Shown: positions 6,793 to 19,083 of the stretch, one piece after another
How the letters are laid out: each line of letters opens with the position of its first letter
Numbering within the stretch: position 1 is the first letter of the stretch
Virus record (IMG/VR): IMGVR_UViG_3300046011_004900
Span: 1 to 20,500 of that record
Length of the DNA: 20,500 nucleotides
Reading direction: 5' to 3' (one strand)
DNA from: a virus
Notes under the pieces: generated by a model
Database searches by the model: none
What the model was told of the DNA's origin: nothing
Seen by the model: only the letters and a program-made list of their open reading frames with translations
Program-made: the position numbers and the translations under genes

Positions 6793-9738
6793 ATGGCAAA
6801 GATATTAAGCAACGTAAATATATTAACTGGACAAGTTGTTGAAGCCCACCACGTAACTCAATCTATAGATGCATTCACCGGAGTAGAAGCATATAATATA
6901 ACATTATCTGGTTCATTAACATTAGTAGGACCAACTAACATAACAGGACAAGTTTCAGCATCTGGATTTACTGGATCACTACATGGTACTGCATCTTGGG
7001 CCTTAAACTCACCAAACTCCGTTAGTGCCTCGTATGCCGCTACTGCTTCATATGTTGTAAGTTCATCTTATGCATTAAACTCTACTAGTGCATCATATGC
7101 CATTACTTCTTCTTACTCACGTAACTCAACTAGTGCTTCATATGCTGTTAATTCAACAAGTGCATCATATGCTGCTACAGCATCTTACGCTGTAAGCGCA
7201 TCGTATGAAATTAATTACGAAACAAGTTCATCGTATGCAGAAACTGCATCTATTGCAACTAGTGCATCTTATGCTATTAATTCAACTAGTGCTTCATATG
7301 CATTAACTGCATCTTATTTGACGGGATATATTTCACCATTCCCATTTACTGGTTCTGCCCAATTCACCGGATCTGTAGGTATTACAGGTAGCTTAGAGGT
7401 AACGGGTGGTATTACCGGTAGCTTATTAGGCACCGCTTCATATGCATTGAGTGCTCTTAGTGCTTCTTATGCATCAATTGCTACTAGTTCATCATATGCT
7501 ATTAATTCAACTAGTGCCTCTTACGCTACAACATCATCTTATTCAAACAATTCAACTAGTGCTTCGTATTCATTAAACACTACTAGTGCATCATATGCTA
7601 CTACAGCATCATATGCTATTAATTCAACTAGCGCTTCATACTCATTGAATACTACTAGTGCTTCATACGCAACAACATCCTCTTACTCAAATAACTCAAC
7701 TAGTGCTTCCTATTCACTTAACTCAACAAGTGCTTCCTACGCTACAAACGCAACTAGTGCTTCATATGCAGAAACAGCATCATATGCTGTAAGTGCATCA
7801 TATGAAATTAACTACGAAACAAGTTCTTCGTATGCAGAAACTGCATCTATTGCCACTAGTGCCTCATATGCTATTAATTCAACTAGTGCATCTTATGCTA
7901 CTACATCATCTTACTCAAACAACTCAACTAGTGCATCTTATGCTACCACTTCATCTTACTCAAATACATCAACAAGTGCTTCATATGCATTAAACGCTAC
8001 AAGTGCTTCATACGCATTATCATCATCCTATTCACGTAATTCAACAAGTGCATCTTACTCATTAACATCATCTTATTCAATAAGTACAATTAGTGCTTCA
8101 CACGCTGCAACTGCATCTTATGTTAATACATTACGCCAAACCGTACTAATATCCGGTTCATTAATTGTATCTGGTTCTGGTTCATCCTCACCTCTATTTA
8201 ATGTTGTAGGTAGTGTAGAAGATATACTTACCATATACGACGGAGATACAAATAGTGGATCTATTCTATTTGTAAATGACAGCAATGATGCACCTATATT
8301 TCAAGTATTTACTGGAAGTATATCAATGCATAAACCAACTACAATTTCAGGTAGTTTAAATGTAACGGGATCTACATCAATAACAGGTAGCTTAAATGTA
8401 ACTGGTGGTATAACTGGTAGCTTATTAGGCACCGCTTCATATGCATTGAGTACTCTTAGTGCATCATACGCTCCCACATCTACTAGTGCTTCATATGCAG
8501 CTACTGCATCAATTGCTACTAGTGCTTCATACGCATTAAACACAACAAGCGCTTCATATGCTGCAACGGCGTCCATTGCTACTAGTGCATCATATGCTGC
8601 AACATCATCTTACGTTGTAAGCTCATCGTATGCTACTACTTCATCGATTGCTACTACTGCATCTTATGCTGCAACGGCATCTTATGTTGTAAGTTCATCA
8701 TATGCTGCAACATCATCTTATGTTGTAAGTTCATCATACGCATCAACAGCATCTATTGCTACTAGCTCTTCATATGCTGCTACTGCATCAATTGCCGTTA
8801 GTTCATCGTACTCGACAACATCATCAATAGCAACTAGTGCATCTTACGCTACTACAGCATCTTACGCTATAAGTGCATCGTATGAAATCAATTACGAAAC
8901 AAGCTCGTCATATGCAGAAACTGCTTCGATTGCAATTAGTGCATCATATGTATTGAATGTAACAAGTGCATCATATGCAGCTACATCATCTTACACAACA
9001 AACACAATTAGTGCATCATATGCTACTACATCATTAAATACATCTGATGTATTAATATATGTTAAAAATGTTACTGGTGCCTCTATAGCAAAAGGTAAAG
9101 TCGTAAGAATATCTGGCGCAACTGGAGATAACGCATTAATATCAACAGCATCATATGATGCCGATAGCGTATCCGCTAATACCTTGGGTATATTAAATGA
9201 AACTATAGCGGATCAAGCATTTGGGTATGTAATGACTGAAGGTAAATTGCTAGGAATTAATACAGACACATTCACTGCTGGACAACTTTTATACCTAGGA
9301 CCTACGGGCTCAATTATAGGATATGAACCAGTTCCTCCACTTCACGCAGTTCGTTTAGGTCAAGCTCTACGAATCCAAACCAATAATGGTTCAATGTATG
9401 TTCGTATCGATAACGGATATGAATTAGATGAATTACATAATGTATTAATCATATCTGGATCTGATGGAGATCTATTAGTAGCTAGTGGTAGTAACAATAA
9501 TGGTAAAAAATTATATATTAATACTAAACAATTAACTGGATCATATGGTTTAACTGGTAGCTTAAATATAACTGGTTCTGCGTTAATTACCGGTTCATTA
9601 AATGTAAAAGATATACTAGTACTAACACCTAGAACAACCACCCCTACACCAACCGAGGGAATGATTATAGCTTCAGGGTCAGCAGGTAGTAGTATATTAT
9701 ATTACTATAATGGGACCTCTTGGAATGCATTATTTTAA
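6793..9738 (+). CDS. Repetitive tail fibre protein (SASYA repeats)
   Basis: A 981-residue fibre. The N-terminal 75 residues (MAKILSNVNILTGQVVEAHH and on) probably anchor it to the virion. Three tracts of short SASYA / SSSYA / TASYA units follow (bases about 7021-7320, 7430-8130 and 8430-9036), separated by TGS-rich inserts (FTGSVGITGSLEVTGGITGS and similar) that look like beta-solenoid or collar segments. After base 9040 comes a non-repeat C-terminal region with DVLIYVKNVTGASIAKGKVV, TLGILNETIADQAFGYV and YLGPTGSIIG. I recall this as a recurring domain of phage fibres and bacterial surface proteins. The last 50 residues (SSILYYYNGTSWNALF) resemble a fibre tip. Regular alternation of small residues with Tyr suggests an elongated trimeric shaft. 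The role is probably receptor contact. A 36-residue super-repeat occurs three times. Confidence 0.88.
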   Translation: MAKILSNVNILTGQVVEAHHVTQSIDAFTGVEAYNITLSGSLTLVGPTNITGQVSASGFTGSLHGTASWALNSPNSVSASYAATASYVVSSSYALNSTSASYAITSSYSRNSTSASYAVNSTSASYAATASYAVSASYEINYETSSSYAETASIATSASYAINSTSASYALTASYLTGYISPFPFTGSAQFTGSVGITGSLEVTGGITGSLLGTASYALSALSASYASIATSSSYAINSTSASYATTSSYSNNSTSASYSLNTTSASYATTASYAINSTSASYSLNTTSASYATTSSYSNNSTSASYSLNSTSASYATNATSASYAETASYAVSASYEINYETSSSYAETASIATSASYAINSTSASYATTSSYSNNSTSASYATTSSYSNTSTSASYALNATSASYALSSSYSRNSTSASYSLTSSYSISTISASHAATASYVNTLRQTVLISGSLIVSGSGSSSPLFNVVGSVEDILTIYDGDTNSGSILFVNDSNDAPIFQVFTGSISMHKPTTISGSLNVTGSTSITGSLNVTGGITGSLLGTASYALSTLSASYAPTSTSASYAATASIATSASYALNTTSASYAATASIATSASYAATSSYVVSSSYATTSSIATTASYAATASYVVSSSYAATSSYVVSSSYASTASIATSSSYAATASIAVSSSYSTTSSIATSASYATTASYAISASYEINYETSSSYAETASIAISASYVLNVTSASYAATSSYTTNTISASYATTSLNTSDVLIYVKNVTGASIAKGKVVRISGATGDNALISTASYDADSVSANTLGILNETIADQAFGYVMTEGKLLGINTDTFTAGQLLYLGPTGSIIGYEPVPPLHAVRLGQALRIQTNNGSMYVRIDNGYELDELHNVLIISGSDGDLLVASGSNNNGKKLYINTKQLTGSYGLTGSLNITGSALITGSLNVKDILVLTPRTTTPTPTEGMIIASGSAGSSILYYYNGTSWNALF
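7021..7320 (+). repeat. SASYA coding repeat tract 1
   Basis: About 100 residues made almost entirely of units such as TSASYA, TASYA and SSSYA separated by 3-6 residues (LNS, INS, VNS). At DNA level the units are imperfect (tca/tct/tcg for Ser, gca/gct/gcc for Ala), so the amino-acid pattern is more regular than the base sequence. Confidence 0.9.
7195..7302 (+). repeat. 36-residue super-repeat, copy A
   Basis: Encodes SASYEINYETSSSYAETAS followed by IATSASYAINSTSASYA. The EINYE block stands out from the surrounding small-residue repeats and marks the unit. Same unit at 7792-7899 and 8872-8979. Confidence 0.88.
7417..7463 (+). repeat. Direct repeat, copy 1 (36 identical bases, 47 with one mismatch)
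   Basis: Begins GGTAGCTTATTAGGCACCGC and runs through the codons for GSLLGTASYALS. The first 36 bases are identical to 8416-8451, exactly 999 bases downstream and in the same frame. This is the longest near-identical DNA repeat seen in the gene and a plausible site for recombination between fibre segments. Confidence 0.85.
7430..8130 (+). repeat. SASYA coding repeat tract 2
   Basis: The longest tract, about 230 residues. Units alternate between SASYA, SSYSNNST and SASYSLNT types, including a sub-pattern STSASYATTSSYSNN that recurs several times. It ends at SASHAATASYVNTL before a non-repeat insert (LISGSLIVSGSG). Confidence 0.88.
7792..7899 (+). repeat. 36-residue super-repeat, copy B
   Basis: Encodes the same 36 residues as copy A (7195-7302), with base differences confined to synonymous positions as far as I could read (for example agc/agt, tcg/tca, aat/aac codons). 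Confidence 0.88.
8416..8462 (+). repeat. Direct repeat, copy 2
   Basis: Second copy of the 36-base identical repeat (47 bases with one mismatch) found at 7417-7463. It restarts the TGSLLGTASYALS segment that opens the third repeat tract. Confidence 0.85.
8430..9036 (+). repeat. SASYA coding repeat tract 3
   Basis: About 200 residues. Here units of the type TASIATSASYAATSSYVVSS dominate, unlike tract 2, so the tracts have diverged in unit type while keeping the Ser-Tyr-Ala spacing. Confidence 0.88.
8872..8979 (+). repeat. 36-residue super-repeat, copy C
   Basis: Encodes SASYEINYETSSSYAETAS followed by IAISASYVLNVTSASYA: identical to copies A and B in the first 21 residues and diverged in the remainder (T to I, A to V, I to L, S to V). 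Confidence 0.85.
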
Positions 9739-11926: not shown

Positions 11927-12685
11927 ATGATTAGTTTAGTTCAATTATTAAGAGAAGTACAAAATAACCCACAAGCTATATTCCTAGCAGGCCCAGCAGG
12001 TAGTGGTAAATCATATTTATCTAAACAATTACTACCCCAATCATTCACAACCATCAATTCAGATGACACATATGAAGAAATGTTGAAGGCGAGTGGGATT
12101 GGACTTAAACAAACTAATTTCACTCCCGAACAACTATCTCAAGCAGCTAAAATTCAAGCTCAATCACGTAAAATTACTCAAGATAAACTTGCACAAACAC
12201 TGGAGGGTAGGCAAAGTGTAATTATTGACGGTACCGGTGCTGCATCAAATCCAATACTCAAGAAAAAACAGGAATTGGAATCACTCGGCTACACTACATT
12301 AATGTTAATGATATATGTTTCACCATTAACTTCACTTCAACGTAATGCTGAACGTGAACGTAGTTTAATGCCTGGAATTGTACTTAGAACATGGCGCGAT
12401 GTAAATCGCAATATAGATACATACGCACGTGAATTTGGTGATAATTTCATATTAATAAATAACGATCCAAACAATGCAAATAAATCGTTTTCTACCGCAC
12501 TAGCTGATTCGTATATTAAACAATCAACAGCTACTGGTAAACCAAAAACACCAGAAGAACAAGCAAAATCGGACGCAGATAAAGCACAATTAAATTACGA
12601 CATAGAAAATATGGTAAAAACATTACCTACATTCGACACATTACAGACAGCTAAAAGTAAAATTAATATATTCTCGAACATATGA
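11927..12685 (+). CDS. P-loop kinase, zeta-toxin / polynucleotide-kinase type
   Basis: A 252-residue P-loop phosphotransferase. Walker A is G22-P-A-G-S-G-K28-S29; the following NSDDTYEEM (residues 44-52) is where kinases of this group bind the acceptor; IIDGTGA at 99-105 is the Walker B-like strand; and R143/R145 with SLMPGIVLRTWRDVNRN (146-162) form a lid-like arginine region. I recall this lid pattern from a zeta-toxin-family protein common in environmental phages, and the layout also parallels the kinase domain of T4 polynucleotide kinase. The phosphate acceptor (nucleic acid 5' end, nucleotide or sugar nucleotide) is not determined. Sixteen residues (MISLVQLLREVQNNPQ) precede the first strand and resemble leaders on neighbouring genes. 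An ATG at 11917 closes after five codons, so 11927 is the start. The stop overlaps the next start (ATGA). Confidence 0.85.
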   Translation: MISLVQLLREVQNNPQAIFLAGPAGSGKSYLSKQLLPQSFTTINSDDTYEEMLKASGIGLKQTNFTPEQLSQAAKIQAQSRKITQDKLAQTLEGRQSVIIDGTGAASNPILKKKQELESLGYTTLMLMIYVSPLTSLQRNAERERSLMPGIVLRTWRDVNRNIDTYAREFGDNFILINNDPNNANKSFSTALADSYIKQSTATGKPKTPEEQAKSDADKAQLNYDIENMVKTLPTFDTLQTAKSKINIFSNI

Positions 12686-13647
12686 ATCCACTAGTACAAT
12701 CCATTATTCAACCCTTCATTAACGAGGAGATACTCCCCCAAAACAAACCTACATTGGCTATATACCCAGGTAAATTTAAACCACCACATGCCGGACACGC
12801 TATGGTAGCTAAAAAATTAATGGATGTTGCAGATAAAGTAGTAATATTAATATCACCAAAAATACATGAAGGAATTACCCCACATCAAAGTGAGGCAATA
12901 TGGAATTTATACAACGAAAAATTATTCAACAATAAATTAACCATTCAAATATCCGACAAACCATCTCCCGTAACTGGTATATTAAATGAAATTAAGAACC
13001 ACCAAGATATGGAATTTATTGCTGCTTGTGGTAAAAGTGAAGAGGATAGATTCGTTAAAATAGGTAGAGACCCAGAATACATGAATGCTAGAACATTCGA
13101 TGCTGGTATATTGGAGGGAGGTATTAGTGCAACTGAATTAAGAGCATCAATTAATAATAATCAAGACATATCTCATTTTTTACCTAAAGGTATATCTACT
13201 CAAGAATATTTAGATATATTAACACCTGAACAACCATTAAATGAAAGTAGTCCCGTTGAGGAGCAACGTCAATTATTGTTAGGTTATATCCAATCGTTGA
13301 ATGAATATATGATTAAACAGGGAATGAACGTACAACCATTACCTCGCGTTGAAATAATTGACAACGATGTAGCAAATGCAGCTAATTTCTTTGGTAAAAC
13401 CGGTTACTACATACCCCAAAACCCCACAATAGTAGTATATTCATTGAACCGATCTCCACGTGATGTTCTTGCTACAATATGTCATGAATATATTCATCAT
13501 ATACAAAATATGGAGGATCGATTACCTGAAATCAACACTACTAATGTAAATGAAGATGATAATTTGAAGGAAATTGAACGTGAAGCATATGAACAGGGTG
13601 GGTTATTACTTAGACAATTTAAAAACACCCTTTTACCTAACTCGTAA
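12682..13647 (+). CDS. Nucleotidyltransferase fused to HExxH metallopeptidase-like domain
   Basis: A 321-residue two-domain protein. Residues about 23-180 are a cytidylyltransferase-like nucleotidyltransferase: YPGKFKPPHAGH carries the nucleotide-binding HxGH (H36, H39) and ISATELR (148-154) is the matching ISSTxxR motif. Relatives transfer AMP or CMP to NMN, pantetheine phosphate, FMN or sugar phosphates; the substrate here is not evident. Residues about 190-321 contain H268-E-Y-I-H272 followed by EIEREAYEQG about 25-30 residues later, where a glutamate (E297 or E301) would be the third zinc ligand of a gluzincin-type peptidase. A Pro/Asn/Glu-rich linker with PLNESSPVEE lies between the domains. 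The fusion is one uninterrupted frame. An N-terminal extension (LVQSIIQPFINEEI) resembles leaders on neighbouring genes. Start overlaps the kinase stop. Confidence 0.85.
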   Translation: MNPLVQSIIQPFINEEILPQNKPTLAIYPGKFKPPHAGHAMVAKKLMDVADKVVILISPKIHEGITPHQSEAIWNLYNEKLFNNKLTIQISDKPSPVTGILNEIKNHQDMEFIAACGKSEEDRFVKIGRDPEYMNARTFDAGILEGGISATELRASINNNQDISHFLPKGISTQEYLDILTPEQPLNESSPVEEQRQLLLGYIQSLNEYMIKQGMNVQPLPRVEIIDNDVANAANFFGKTGYYIPQNPTIVVYSLNRSPRDVLATICHEYIHHIQNMEDRLPEINTTNVNEDDNLKEIEREAYEQGGLLLRQFKNTLLPNS

Positions 13648-13657
13648 AAATAGTAAT

Positions 13658-14305
13658 ATGACTAAACAACAATTAATATCAATAATACGGGAAGAAATAA
13701 AATTAATTACTAACCCTACTATTCAATTAAATGAGGGTACATTTGATTCATATATACTGGACATTTCACGCCAAATAATCAACGCATTTAAGCGCAAAAA
13801 AACACTTAACTTAACATACACCATAACTCGTGGTGGAGAGGAAGCTGAATTTGATTTAGTGGCACGTTTTGTACCTGTATCTAATCTATCTCAACCATAT
13901 TCTATATCCGCTAATTCGGATATGAATTCATTCAATATGTCTATTGAATTCAATCCTACAACATTCCCACAAGCATTTAGTGATATGGTAGCTGAAGTTA
14001 AAGAAACAGTAACACACGAGTTGGAACATATAGGTCAACAGAATTTTGAAGATATGAACGTCAAATATTCAAATTACGAAACAACTATTGAATACTACAC
14101 TTCACCTCAAGAGATACCGGCATTTATTAAAGGATTAATTAAACGAGCAAAAACTAAAAATATACCACTAGCAACAGCTATGGAAGAATGGCATCAAGAA
14201 AATATATTAAATTTCAACAACCCCGAAACAGATTGGCCTATAGTAAAACGTATATGGTTAGATTGGATTAAAGACAATAAGCAACAATTAAAGAAATTTA
14301 TATAA
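13658..14305 (+). CDS. HExxH metallopeptidase-like protein with IIREEI leader
   Basis: A 215-residue protein. The start at ATG 13658 is chosen because it follows the preceding stop by 10 bases; an upstream in-frame ATG at 13574 would give 28 extra residues overlapping the previous gene. H120-E-L-E-H124 is a zincin motif, and E152 in SPQEIPAFI is a likely third ligand, giving the gluzincin arrangement. The N-terminus MTKQQLISIIREEIKLI and the following QLNEG (residues 23-27) look like a targeting leader ending in a potential prohead-protease site. The region between (30-110) shows alternating beta-type patterning. Substrate unknown: possibilities include virion-internal processing, cell-wall associated peptides or a host protein. 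It is the second HExxH protein in a row, but the two share little beyond the motif. Confidence 0.8.
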   Translation: MTKQQLISIIREEIKLITNPTIQLNEGTFDSYILDISRQIINAFKRKKTLNLTYTITRGGEEAEFDLVARFVPVSNLSQPYSISANSDMNSFNMSIEFNPTTFPQAFSDMVAEVKETVTHELEHIGQQNFEDMNVKYSNYETTIEYYTSPQEIPAFIKGLIKRAKTKNIPLATAMEEWHQENILNFNNPETDWPIVKRIWLDWIKDNKQQLKKFI

Positions 14306-14332
14306 AACGTGCCAACCATATATATTTCCCAT

Positions 14333-14341
14333 ATATTTATA
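14333..14341 (+). promoter_or_regulatory. ATATTTATA motif before the HAD gene
   Basis: ATATTTATA ends two bases before the ATG at 14344, in a 38-base A/T-rich gap that also contains CATATATATTTCCC. Such closeness to the start argues against a simple -10 promoter here, unless the message is leaderless or initiates elsewhere. Confidence 0.3.
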
Positions 14342-14343
14342 CC

Positions 14344-14877
14344 ATGATTAATTTATCAAATTTATACAACGAAATAGTGGAACAATCAAAATATACTATA
14401 TACTGTGATCTTGATGGAGTTTTAGTTGACTTCGATAAAGGATACGAAAAATTAACTGGTAAACACACATCACATGCTGATGTACAGACCAAATCTACAT
14501 TCTGGAGAGCGTTTAACCATAGTTTACTTGTTAAAAATATAACTGAGCAAGAATACTGGTCCCGATTGGATTGGATGGTAGATGGGAAGGAATTATGGGA
14601 TTACATTAAATTATATAAACCATATATTTTAACTGCACCTACATACAATTCAGGATCAAGATATGGTAAGGCCGTGTGGGTTGAAACCCATCTAGGCCCT
14701 GTAAAGAAATTATATTTTTCACCAGCGGCTCGCAAAGCTGAATTTTCCCAAGAAAATGCAATACTTATCGACGATAGAGCTGCTACCATAGACGAATGGG
14801 TTGCTCGCGGAGGTATAGGTATATTTCATACTTCAACTCAAGACACAATACAACAATTAAAAGCACTCAACATATAA
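14344..14877 (+). CDS. HAD-superfamily 5'-nucleotidase-like phosphatase
   Basis: A 177-residue HAD phosphatase. Motif I is YCDLDGVLVDF with nucleophile D22 and acid/base D24; motif II is T97 in ILTAPT; motif III is probably K131 in AARKAEF; motif IV is LIDDRAATIDEW with D143/D144 binding magnesium. The DLDGVLVDF plus LIDDR combination is typical of 5'(3')-deoxyribonucleotidases, and LIDDR...W also resembles the phosphatase half of T4 polynucleotide kinase. The enzyme would remove phosphates from nucleotides or nucleic-acid ends. Residues 1-15 (MINLSNLYNEIVEQS) precede the fold and look like a leader. With the P-loop kinase two genes upstream it could form a split end-healing pair (inference). 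One base separates its stop from the next ATG. Confidence 0.88.
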   Translation: MINLSNLYNEIVEQSKYTIYCDLDGVLVDFDKGYEKLTGKHTSHADVQTKSTFWRAFNHSLLVKNITEQEYWSRLDWMVDGKELWDYIKLYKPYILTAPTYNSGSRYGKAVWVETHLGPVKKLYFSPAARKAEFSQENAILIDDRAATIDEWVARGGIGIFHTSTQDTIQQLKALNI

Positions 14878-16312: not shown

Positions 16313-17299
16313 ATGAGCGATAATTTTGACTTAAAAAAATTCCTTAAGGAAAGTAAAGCAATCGAAAACTTAAACCCGGTTTTCCACAGATTAAACGAAA
16401 ATAAAAAAACAGAAACCACTAAAACTACACTAGTAGAAAATAACCTACGTGCTAAAATACGTGAAATGGTATTGGCTGAATTAGGTGGACGTGAAAATTA
16501 TAATTTGGGTGATGACATATATAATAATAATGGGGAAGAGGATCCATTTGATGGTATGGATATTAATTTTGGAGACGAAGACGAGATATACGAAGGTGGA
16601 GGAAATAATTTTACGTGGGTTTGGGATAAAAGTAAGCTTACTAGAACATCGTACAATAATGGAAAATATAATACATCTGAAAAATTTAAATCATTAGAAG
16701 ACCTATTAGCTAATAAGGAAAAAGCTGATGAGATTCAAAAACGTAGAGAAGAAAAAGGGCGTGATAAAATTGAACATATCCTTAAAGAAGAAGACGAAAA
16801 CAAGATATATGAAATATCCAAACATCTATCTAAATTTAAAGACTATAAAGACCCACACCCAGAAATTTATGCTCGAATGCTTGCTAATTGGAATAGTACT
16901 GGTAAAAACCCATTCTTCCCATCTCTTCAATTAGATATGGTAGACTGGGAAGCAACCAAAGAAGGTCACGATTTTTGGGAAGATGTATATGATGGTCGTT
17001 TTGAAGATGCATATAATTATATTAAATATCATGGTGATGAATTGTACGAAGCTAAAAAAGACAAAGCAGAAGATATGCCGGCTGACGACGAGGAAATCGA
17101 TTTAGAACTAGAACCAGAAACAGATGCACCTGAAGCAGAATTAACAGCAGCAGCTTCTAGCGCTACAGGTGATGCTAAAGAATTAATTAATAACTTAATG
17201 GCCTCTTTAGATACAGCTAAAGCAATGGGTAACGAAAAACTTACCACACAGATACTTAACACACTTAAATTTGCTATTGACCAATCAATGGCACAATAA
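16313..17299 (+). CDS. Acidic scaffold- or core-like protein
   Basis: A 328-residue hydrophilic protein. Residues 1-29 form a leader-like segment (MSDNFDLKKFLKES, ending HRLNE), and residues 45-59 contain a second amphipathic segment (LRAKIREMVLAELGG). A strongly acidic, Gly/Asn-rich stretch occupies 64-95, a charged helical central part follows, and another acidic run is EEIDLELEPETDAPEAE near residue 260. The C-terminal 45 residues (GDAKELINNLMASLDTAKAM, then GNEKLTTQILNTLKFAIDQS) are a helical tail that I recall from phage proteins of capsid-core type. Charge, helices and possible protease sites fit a prohead core or scaffold component, removed or packaged during maturation. No enzyme motif is present. 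A structural but non-scaffold role is possible. Confidence 0.7.
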   Translation: MSDNFDLKKFLKESKAIENLNPVFHRLNENKKTETTKTTLVENNLRAKIREMVLAELGGRENYNLGDDIYNNNGEEDPFDGMDINFGDEDEIYEGGGNNFTWVWDKSKLTRTSYNNGKYNTSEKFKSLEDLLANKEKADEIQKRREEKGRDKIEHILKEEDENKIYEISKHLSKFKDYKDPHPEIYARMLANWNSTGKNPFFPSLQLDMVDWEATKEGHDFWEDVYDGRFEDAYNYIKYHGDELYEAKKDKAEDMPADDEEIDLELEPETDAPEAELTAAASSATGDAKELINNLMASLDTAKAMGNEKLTTQILNTLKFAIDQSMAQ

Positions 17300-18414: not shown

Positions 18415-19083
18415 ATGGAATTAAATACATATGGAGATCTAAAACGAGTAATCAAATTTATATCTACTAAACAAAAAGGAGAAAAACTTGGAAAAGTTGC
18501 TTTAGAAACTCTAGTTAGCTTTATCCCTGGAGTCGATGCTGCCAAATCGACATTTGATTTTGTTAAAGCAGCATTTTCCAAACCAGATATCAAAAAAACC
18601 AATACATGGTTGGATAAATTAGACATAGATGACAAGGTATCGTCCATAATAGATGATACTGTTGAAAATAGTTTTCTCCAATACATGTCTAAAATTATTG
18701 ATAGTGAACCAGATGATAAACCATTAGAACAAGATTTTAATATGAATTCTAAACTAATAGACTTTTTAAAGTCCCAATATGCCGGTAGAACTATAACAGG
18801 GGTAAGAGAAAATAAACTAATTACTAAAAACCACCTTAAACAAATTATTAAAGAAGAAATAAATAAAGTATTAAGTGAAATCACCCCCACCCAATCATCA
18901 ACTGAAGTAATAGCTTTAAAAAAATATCTACAAGGAAGTGGGAAATCGGCTTTATCCCAAATAAATACTCCTTTGGAACTTAAAGACATATTAAATATAA
19001 TATGGGATGGAATGAATCCATCTTTTAGAAGTAATGCAACCTCTGAGTCTTTAAAAAATATAATAGACTCTAAGTTAAAATAA
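18415..19083 (+). CDS. Conserved phage protein with internal IIKEEI segment
   Basis: A 222-residue protein. Residues 1-130 are an alpha-rich conserved domain containing FIPGVDAAKSTFDFVKAAFS, KPDIKKTNTWLDKLDIDDKV and EPDDKPLEQDFNMNSKLIDF, a combination I recall from environmental phage genomes without known function. Residues 139-155 read NHLKQIIKEEINKVLSE, closely matching the leader of the HExxH protein at 13658. A separate helical C-terminal domain follows (VIALKKYLQGSGKSALSQ, then LELKDILNIIWDGMNPSF). The IIKEEI segment therefore sits between two domains instead of at the N-terminus. An ATG at 18400 closes after three codons, so 18415 is the start. A long open frame on the opposite strand here is judged a shadow. 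Confidence 0.75.
   Translation: MELNTYGDLKRVIKFISTKQKGEKLGKVALETLVSFIPGVDAAKSTFDFVKAAFSKPDIKKTNTWLDKLDIDDKVSSIIDDTVENSFLQYMSKIIDSEPDDKPLEQDFNMNSKLIDFLKSQYAGRTITGVRENKLITKNHLKQIIKEEINKVLSEITPTQSSTEVIALKKYLQGSGKSALSQINTPLELKDILNIIWDGMNPSFRSNATSESLKNIIDSKLK

Follow-up and report, generated by a model that had tools for sequence, protein, structure and literature searches.

In a 20.5 kb viral contig from IMG/VR (record IMGVR_UViG_3300046011_004900, positions 1 to 20,500; "the window" is this whole stretch), four consecutive proteins with different folds begin with short leaders. These leaders are very probably removable propeptides that resemble the capsid-targeting sequence (CTS) of phage T4 and load enzymes into the prohead for injection. 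The window comes from a T4-like relative of Flavobacterium phage immuto, which infects Flavobacterium sp. LMO8. As an extension we used an overlapping 37.5 kb contig (G001), which belongs to the same phage (99.98% identity across the overlap) and continues downstream via terminase to a T4-type portal. Comparative evidence gives good support to the proposed T4-like loading of enzymes that are to be injected. Late in infection the leader, a short amphipathic helix, would bind the scaffold core of the prohead, so that the kinase, the NMNAT-like transferase-metalloprotease, the HExxH protein, the 5'-nucleotidase and others would be enclosed before the shell closes. A prohead protease of the T4 gp21 type (S77) would then cleave after [LIV]-x-E, taking the leader off and separating enzyme domains made as a single chain. 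The trimmed enzymes would stay with the DNA, be ejected into the next host and there probably reshape nucleotide/NAD metabolism or blunt defence.

An earlier sequence-only reading of the window had pointed to these N-terminal segments, and all four were found where it had placed them: MISLVQLLREVQ at 11927 on a P-loop kinase (Pfam Zeta_toxin, 7e-13, also AAA_33), MNPLVQSIIQPFINEEI at 12682 on a nucleotidyltransferase (Pfam CTP_transf_like), MTKQQLISIIREEI at 13658 on the HExxH protein (its start taken as the ATG at 13658 rather than the TTG at 13574) and MINLSNLYNEIVEQS at 14344 on a HAD protein (PHROG 5'-3' deoxyribonucleotidase, 4e-27). The near copy noticed in the protein beginning at 18415 is present as well (LKQIIKEEINKVLSE, residues 141-155). 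All five segments have the pattern h-x-x-h-h-x-E in common (h, hydrophobic), and in the four leaders it starts at or before residue 10. When the N-termini of these proteins were shuffled, 0.7-4% matched for each protein, which gives a product of about 1e-7. With the same limit on its start, the motif occurred in 8 of 35 N-termini of the window and G001, where shuffling led one to expect 0.5 and never gave more than 4 in 2000 rounds, and in 2 of 216 internal 40-residue segments of their proteins; these statistics are indicative only. In immuto, whose tagged proteins include 3, 176-179, 184, 187-189, 191, 194 and 195, the motif was carried by 11 of 36 proteins encoded in the cluster and head module at 101-129 kb compared to 10/203 elsewhere (P = 2.5e-5), and in the stretches G005, G006 and G008 it was found in 18/65 forward open reading frames up to the capsid gene and in 0/18 beyond it (P = 0.007). 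The leader segments are real and non-random. We place more weight on independent data from S-CREM2 virions, the immuto genome and tag scans of IMG/VR.

In T4, the first ten residues of internal protein (IP) III are enough for packaging, suppressor mutants assign residues 4 and 7 to targeting and residues 8 and 10 to processing, and gp21 cleaves after L/I-x-E (PMC9026906); moreover, the CTS alone packages a foreign protein (PMC3012670, PMC9026906). IPII and IPIII both start with MKTYQEFIAEA in the T4 record, the IP CTS being MKTYQEFIAE. The kinase leader MISLVQLLRE follows this register exactly (L4, L7, L8 and E10), and M1 and E10 were the sole invariant leader columns in an alignment of 16 kinases (in two Kyanoviridae kinases the Glu was aligned over a short gap). 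The match is exact in the kinase family only: the HAD leader MINLSNLYNE keeps the register but has Tyr8, and the NMNAT, HExxH and class B leaders (for class B, see below) are offset by 2-5 residues. As judged from sequence, L/I-x-E triplets lie at or beyond the leaders (LRE, INE and IRE, plus LNE, IVE and LNE). The segments had also been thought not to be part of the enzyme core, and for the two proteins modelled, the kinase and the HExxH protein, AlphaFold supports a position outside the fold. Residues 1-10 of the kinase had a mean predicted local distance difference test (pLDDT) score of 51, compared to 89.5 for the whole chain; in the HExxH protein, pLDDT was 39-48 per ten-residue block over residues 1-30, and the first core helix starts from residue 28, right after LNE26. 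In sequence and in its modelled fold, the kinase is similar to zeta toxins and polynucleotide kinases; for the HExxH model, no significant or confident match was found among PDB folds.

All kinase homologues of the cluster type retain the leader, as do most HAD homologues of the lineage; HAD homologues of eight other phages begin near the catalytic Asp, without an extension. The T4-like pelagiphage HTVC008M and Melnitz also have members of the kinase and HAD families. Two separate observations concern the NMNAT-protease: immuto protein 183 (L013, 22132-24855) is 907 residues long and joins NMNAT, metalloprotease and HExxH parts behind an additional N-terminal region, with no obvious leader, and a 354,809-base viral contig (L012/G009) encodes a T4-type portal together with a relative of the metalloprotease part.

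The head genes of the lineage are of the T4 type. The portal gp20 is encoded by the window phage itself (on G001); its longest contig stops upstream of the protease gene, and the S77 protease is known from relatives (Pfam Peptidase_S77, 3e-27, G005 and immuto), as is gp23 (Pfam, 4e-71, in G005; by annotation in immuto). The cluster is syntenic with that of immuto across primase, exonuclease, NMNAT-protease, 5'-nucleotidase, terminase, portal, S77 protease, scaffold and gp23. The T4 gp23 maturation site, LTE/A (the slash marks the cut), has V-x-E as its aligned counterpart in immuto, G005 and G006, which makes [LIV]xE a plausible protease specificity for the lineage.

In the NMNAT-protease family, [LIV]xE occurred in 7/7 non-redundant members only within the interdomain linker, which is part of the least conserved stretch of the protein. 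At the border of the HExxH domain, relatives have LNE/S, LME/G, LNE/G, TLE/G or MAE/G, and in the window, where the HExxH protein is separate, LNE/G ends its own leader. [LIV/M]xE is retained at both enzyme domain borders despite otherwise unconserved linkers. Since these triplets lie at the domain borders and the AlphaFold core starts after LNE, we predict that the prohead protease both trims the leaders and splits tandem cargo enzymes. A literature search on prohead-protease polyproteins found none.

The leaders fall into at least three classes: A (MKKSQLRQIIKEEL-like), B (NFDLKKFLVEN, as at 16313 in the window) and C (RMQKLAGIITE). Of these, B and C vary so little that IMG/VR could be scanned for them by exact back-translated DNA. 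Class B was found in 58 distinct proteins, in 56 of them at most 12 residues from the start, and 53 of the bodies formed 28 clusters without detectable similarity; class C was found in 64 proteins (59 with the tag at most 30 residues from the start), and 55 bodies formed 33 such clusters. Homologues of immuto or G005 proteins are encoded by nearly all of the IMG/VR stretches from these scans (140/142). In eight families, the tag class differs between homologous bodies: the immuto 176 body, for instance, follows a class A leader and shares 60-68% identity with class B proteins, and in one B/C family the identity between classes is about 52%. Because the classes interchange on homologous bodies, the leaders appear to have one common function. 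Separately, protein L198_51 (stretch L198) has two leaders in tandem, a class C tag and, immediately after it, a class A-like segment (KLTKLIKESLKRILNEN). One could suspect that unrelated short N-terminal helices look alike simply because hydrophobic and acidic residues are common; the motif is degenerate, was formulated after the fact and has the 10/203 matches elsewhere in immuto. Such coincidence is scarcely credible, however: N-termini match more often than after shuffling (8 versus 0.5), and dozens of bodies that are unlike each other have B or C tags that are nearly identical. We rejected chance similarity on account of the swapping between homologous bodies.

The scaffold gp22 homologue, too, has the core of class C, RMQKLAGI, at its extreme C-terminus: of the 15 gp22 C-termini recovered, 13 finish with RMQKLAGI or a similar version (LAG[IL] close to the end). 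Elsewhere in immuto, RMQKLAGI was found only at the N-termini of proteins 41 and 188; the T4 and S-CREM2 scaffolds have different C-terminal endings. The shared sequence suggests that the class C tag imitates a contact used by the scaffold itself. It would also suit a different role, in which tagged proteins enter the prohead as parts of the assembly core, to build or size it and then be degraded or remain as structural filler, rather than as injected enzymes. Several tagged proteins are acidic or of low complexity, and gp21 fragments the core proteins of T4 (PMC9026906). On the other hand, the catalytic motifs of the window cargo (P-loop, HExxH and DxDG) are intact across relatives, which fillers would not need, the predicted sites lie at domain borders and none within domains, and comparable enzymes were detected in cyanophage virions. 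We consider a core role unlikely. Returning to injected cargo, we lean slightly towards a wider proposal for immuto-like phages: at least three interchangeable N-terminal tags, one of them scaffold-matching, would load dozens of proteins including enzymes, and the prohead protease would double as a polyprotein protease that splits NMNAT, metalloprotease and HExxH parts in the capsid.

Virion association of leader-bearing enzymes is seen in T4-like cyanophages. In published work on S-CREM2, mass spectrometry of virions detected 52 of 219 proteins (PMC10665884). All five S-CREM2 proteins with the motif in strict T4 register are among those detected (Fisher P = 6e-4): an S-adenosylmethionine hydrolase (MKDFDSFLEE), a kinase (MKRFDAFLTE), a cytidylyltransferase/NMNAT homologue (MKNFSSFLTE) and two proteins of unassigned function. 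Only this T4-register form of the motif is specific for S-CREM2 virion proteins. A T4-GC190 cytidylyltransferase was detected in S-SM1 virions as well (PMC3037559); T4-GC190 members begin with MKSFSQFLTE in P-SSM2 and MKSFFQFLSE in S-SM2, and the S-CRM01 homologue with MKLFNQFFKE. As the similarity of the window NMNAT to the cyanophage enzymes is weak and mostly within the nucleotidyltransferase region, we claim for them the same enzyme type and not close orthology. A tblastn search with an S-CREM2 leader and linker gave just one close relative and one chance match, so the leaders are untraceable by plain similarity. As an aside, S-CREM2 gp12 (L024, 7704-10313), a Cas9-like nuclease in the virion, carries the CTS-like sequence FASFMAEA some 20 residues from its N-terminus, which suggests an offset leader or a misannotated start.

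The leaders might instead be docking helices without a role in the virion, which in the infected cell would assemble the enzymes as a complex or bring them to a membrane or scaffold, much as encapsulation peptides act in microcompartments. In favour of this, the leaders are short and amphipathic, the enzymes that bear them come from one gene cluster and have linked metabolic roles, and the N-terminus of the terminase fits the motif as well. Docking, however, leaves unexplained why the kinase leader has a conserved Glu, why class C is identical to the scaffold C-terminus and why CTS-tagged enzymes are detected in the S-CREM2 virion; we regard it as very unlikely.

Several points weigh against packaging into the capsid. 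The motif is short and was defined post hoc from these sequences. By itself it is insufficient, because the terminase large subunit of the window phage, which is not expected inside the virion, also matches at its N-terminus (DIRQIIKEEY). This terminase start (in G001, near extrapolated window coordinate 29161) resembles class A leaders, which may reflect either chance or a head contact in common. Immuto 157, with a class A leader, sits amid baseplate genes, and in the HAD leader Tyr stands at a position for which gp21 favours Leu/Ile, with an IVE site coming next. The S-CREM2 link falls to P = 0.08 when the motif may start as late as residue 18, and the S-CREM2 authors caution that regulatory proteins may co-purify with virions (PMC10665884). 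Such carry-over would hardly explain why the leader is on five detected and zero undetected proteins. In the literature no virion proteome was found for the lineage (immuto and the Baltic Flavobacterium phages were sought). According to the sequence-only reading, loss of the segment from homologues would refute packaging; this is the case for the NMNAT homologues of two related contigs and immuto, which have no obvious leader, and for one of the two HAD copies in Melnitz, while the kinases and most lineage HADs make the comparison favourable on the whole. Its appeal to T4-like capsid targeting is strengthened by the residue match, the T4-type head genes, the virion enzymes of S-CREM2 and the scaffold-matching class, although for the lineage itself we infer the packaging.

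What the enzymes would do at the start of infection, whether control of NAD and nucleotides or counter-defence, is speculative. Counter-defence is suggested by analogy, because T4 IPs, which are injected and disarm host restriction enzymes, inhibit GmrSD (PMC12373910). If our reading is correct, uncharacterised phage proteins could be turned, from sequence alone, into a list of predicted injected proteins. The tagged set would be a natural place for counter-defence and early takeover functions in immuto-related environmental phages, and is worth searching for them since the T4 counterparts act on restriction enzymes. Efforts to load proteins into phage capsids would likewise gain new handles, namely tags derived from the scaffold and multi-enzyme cargo released by a protease.

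The features are collected in Table 1. Two further tagged proteins lie just past the window end, in G001. Upstream of the cluster, a large tail-fibre-like protein (6793-9738) contains dozens of (T)ASYA repeats. The protein at 9756-10187 matches PHROG 447, labelled 'NAD synthetase', a label that is repeated in the immuto annotation and may be wrong, since the same protein also matches homing-endonuclease PHROGs.

Table 1. Leaders, tagged proteins and predicted cleavage sites in the window
Feature	Position	Strand	Basis or remark
Leader MISLVQLLRE of P-loop kinase (CTS-like, T4 register 4/7/8/10)	11927..11956	+	Kinase alignment; T4 register from PMC9026906
P-loop kinase (zeta-toxin/polynucleotide-kinase-like)	11927..12685	+	Pfam, AlphaFold, PDB
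Leader MNPLVQSIIQPFINE of nucleotidyltransferase-protease	12682..12726	+	Homologue comparison
NMNAT-like nucleotidyltransferase with metalloprotease domain	12682..13647	+	Pfam, PHROG, homologues
Predicted prohead-protease site LNE (next residue S) between the two domains of NMNAT-protease	13237..13245	+	Homologues
Leader MTKQQLISIIREE...QLNE of HExxH protein, predicted protease site at its end	13658..13735	+	Homologues, AlphaFold
HExxH putative metalloprotease	13658..14305	+	Fused to the preceding protein in several relatives
Leader MINLSNLYNEIVE of HAD phosphatase	14344..14382	+	Homologues
HAD 5'(3')-deoxyribonucleotidase-like protein	14344..14877	+	PHROG 2643, 4e-27
Class B leader MSDNFDLKKFLKE...HRLNE	16313..16399	+	Homologues, tag scan
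Class B-tagged protein, function unassigned	16313..17299	+	Apparent same-family members carry class C in other phages
Internal class A-like segment LKQIIKEEINKVLSE of the 18415 protein, residues 141-155	18835..18879	+	Sequence

The sequence-only reading had proposed an undescribed cargo system, for which we see no support: the T4 CTS and gp21 already work by this mechanism, a review suggests CTS-directed packaging of various proteins in T4-like phages (PMC9026906), and enzymes have been reported from cyanophage virions (PMC10665884, PMC3037559). The interchangeable tag set, the scaffold-matching class and the predicted multi-enzyme processing are new here in that we did not find them described in the open-access literature searched, which is no proof of novelty. 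Encapsulation peptides of bacterial microcompartments and cargo peptides of encapsulins likewise direct unrelated enzymes into a protein shell by a short helical tag, but these shells are cellular organelles, without a prohead protease or injection. The ejection proteins of the giant phages SPN3US and phiKZ have propeptides cut by a gp21-like protease after x-x-E, and packaged enzymes include the virion RNA polymerase; several of these propeptides, however, exceed 100 residues, other residues precede x-E (S/A-x-E in phiKZ), and a short tag common to many families is not described in the accessible part of that paper (PMC5694885). S-CREM2 and S-SM1 have NMNAT-like cytidylyltransferases and kinases in virions and MKxFxxFLxE leaders, but in the available portions of the two reports the proteins are listed as virion-associated and no connection to a leader is drawn (PMC10665884, PMC3037559). 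In addition, the S-CREM2 kinase is APH-like whereas that of the window is zeta/PNK-like, and the window phage groups with a Flavobacterium phage, unlike these cyanophages. With IPI-III and Alt of T4 the window proteins have in common an N-terminal propeptide of 10-20 residues on unrelated proteins (PMC9026906, PMC3012670), hydrophobic residues 4, 7 and 8 with Glu 10, an S77 protease and a gp20/gp23 head. They differ from the T4 proteins in that the cargo is a cluster of recognisable enzymes together with many unassigned proteins, that there are at least three leader classes, one matching the scaffold C-terminus, and that predicted protease sites also lie between enzyme domains.

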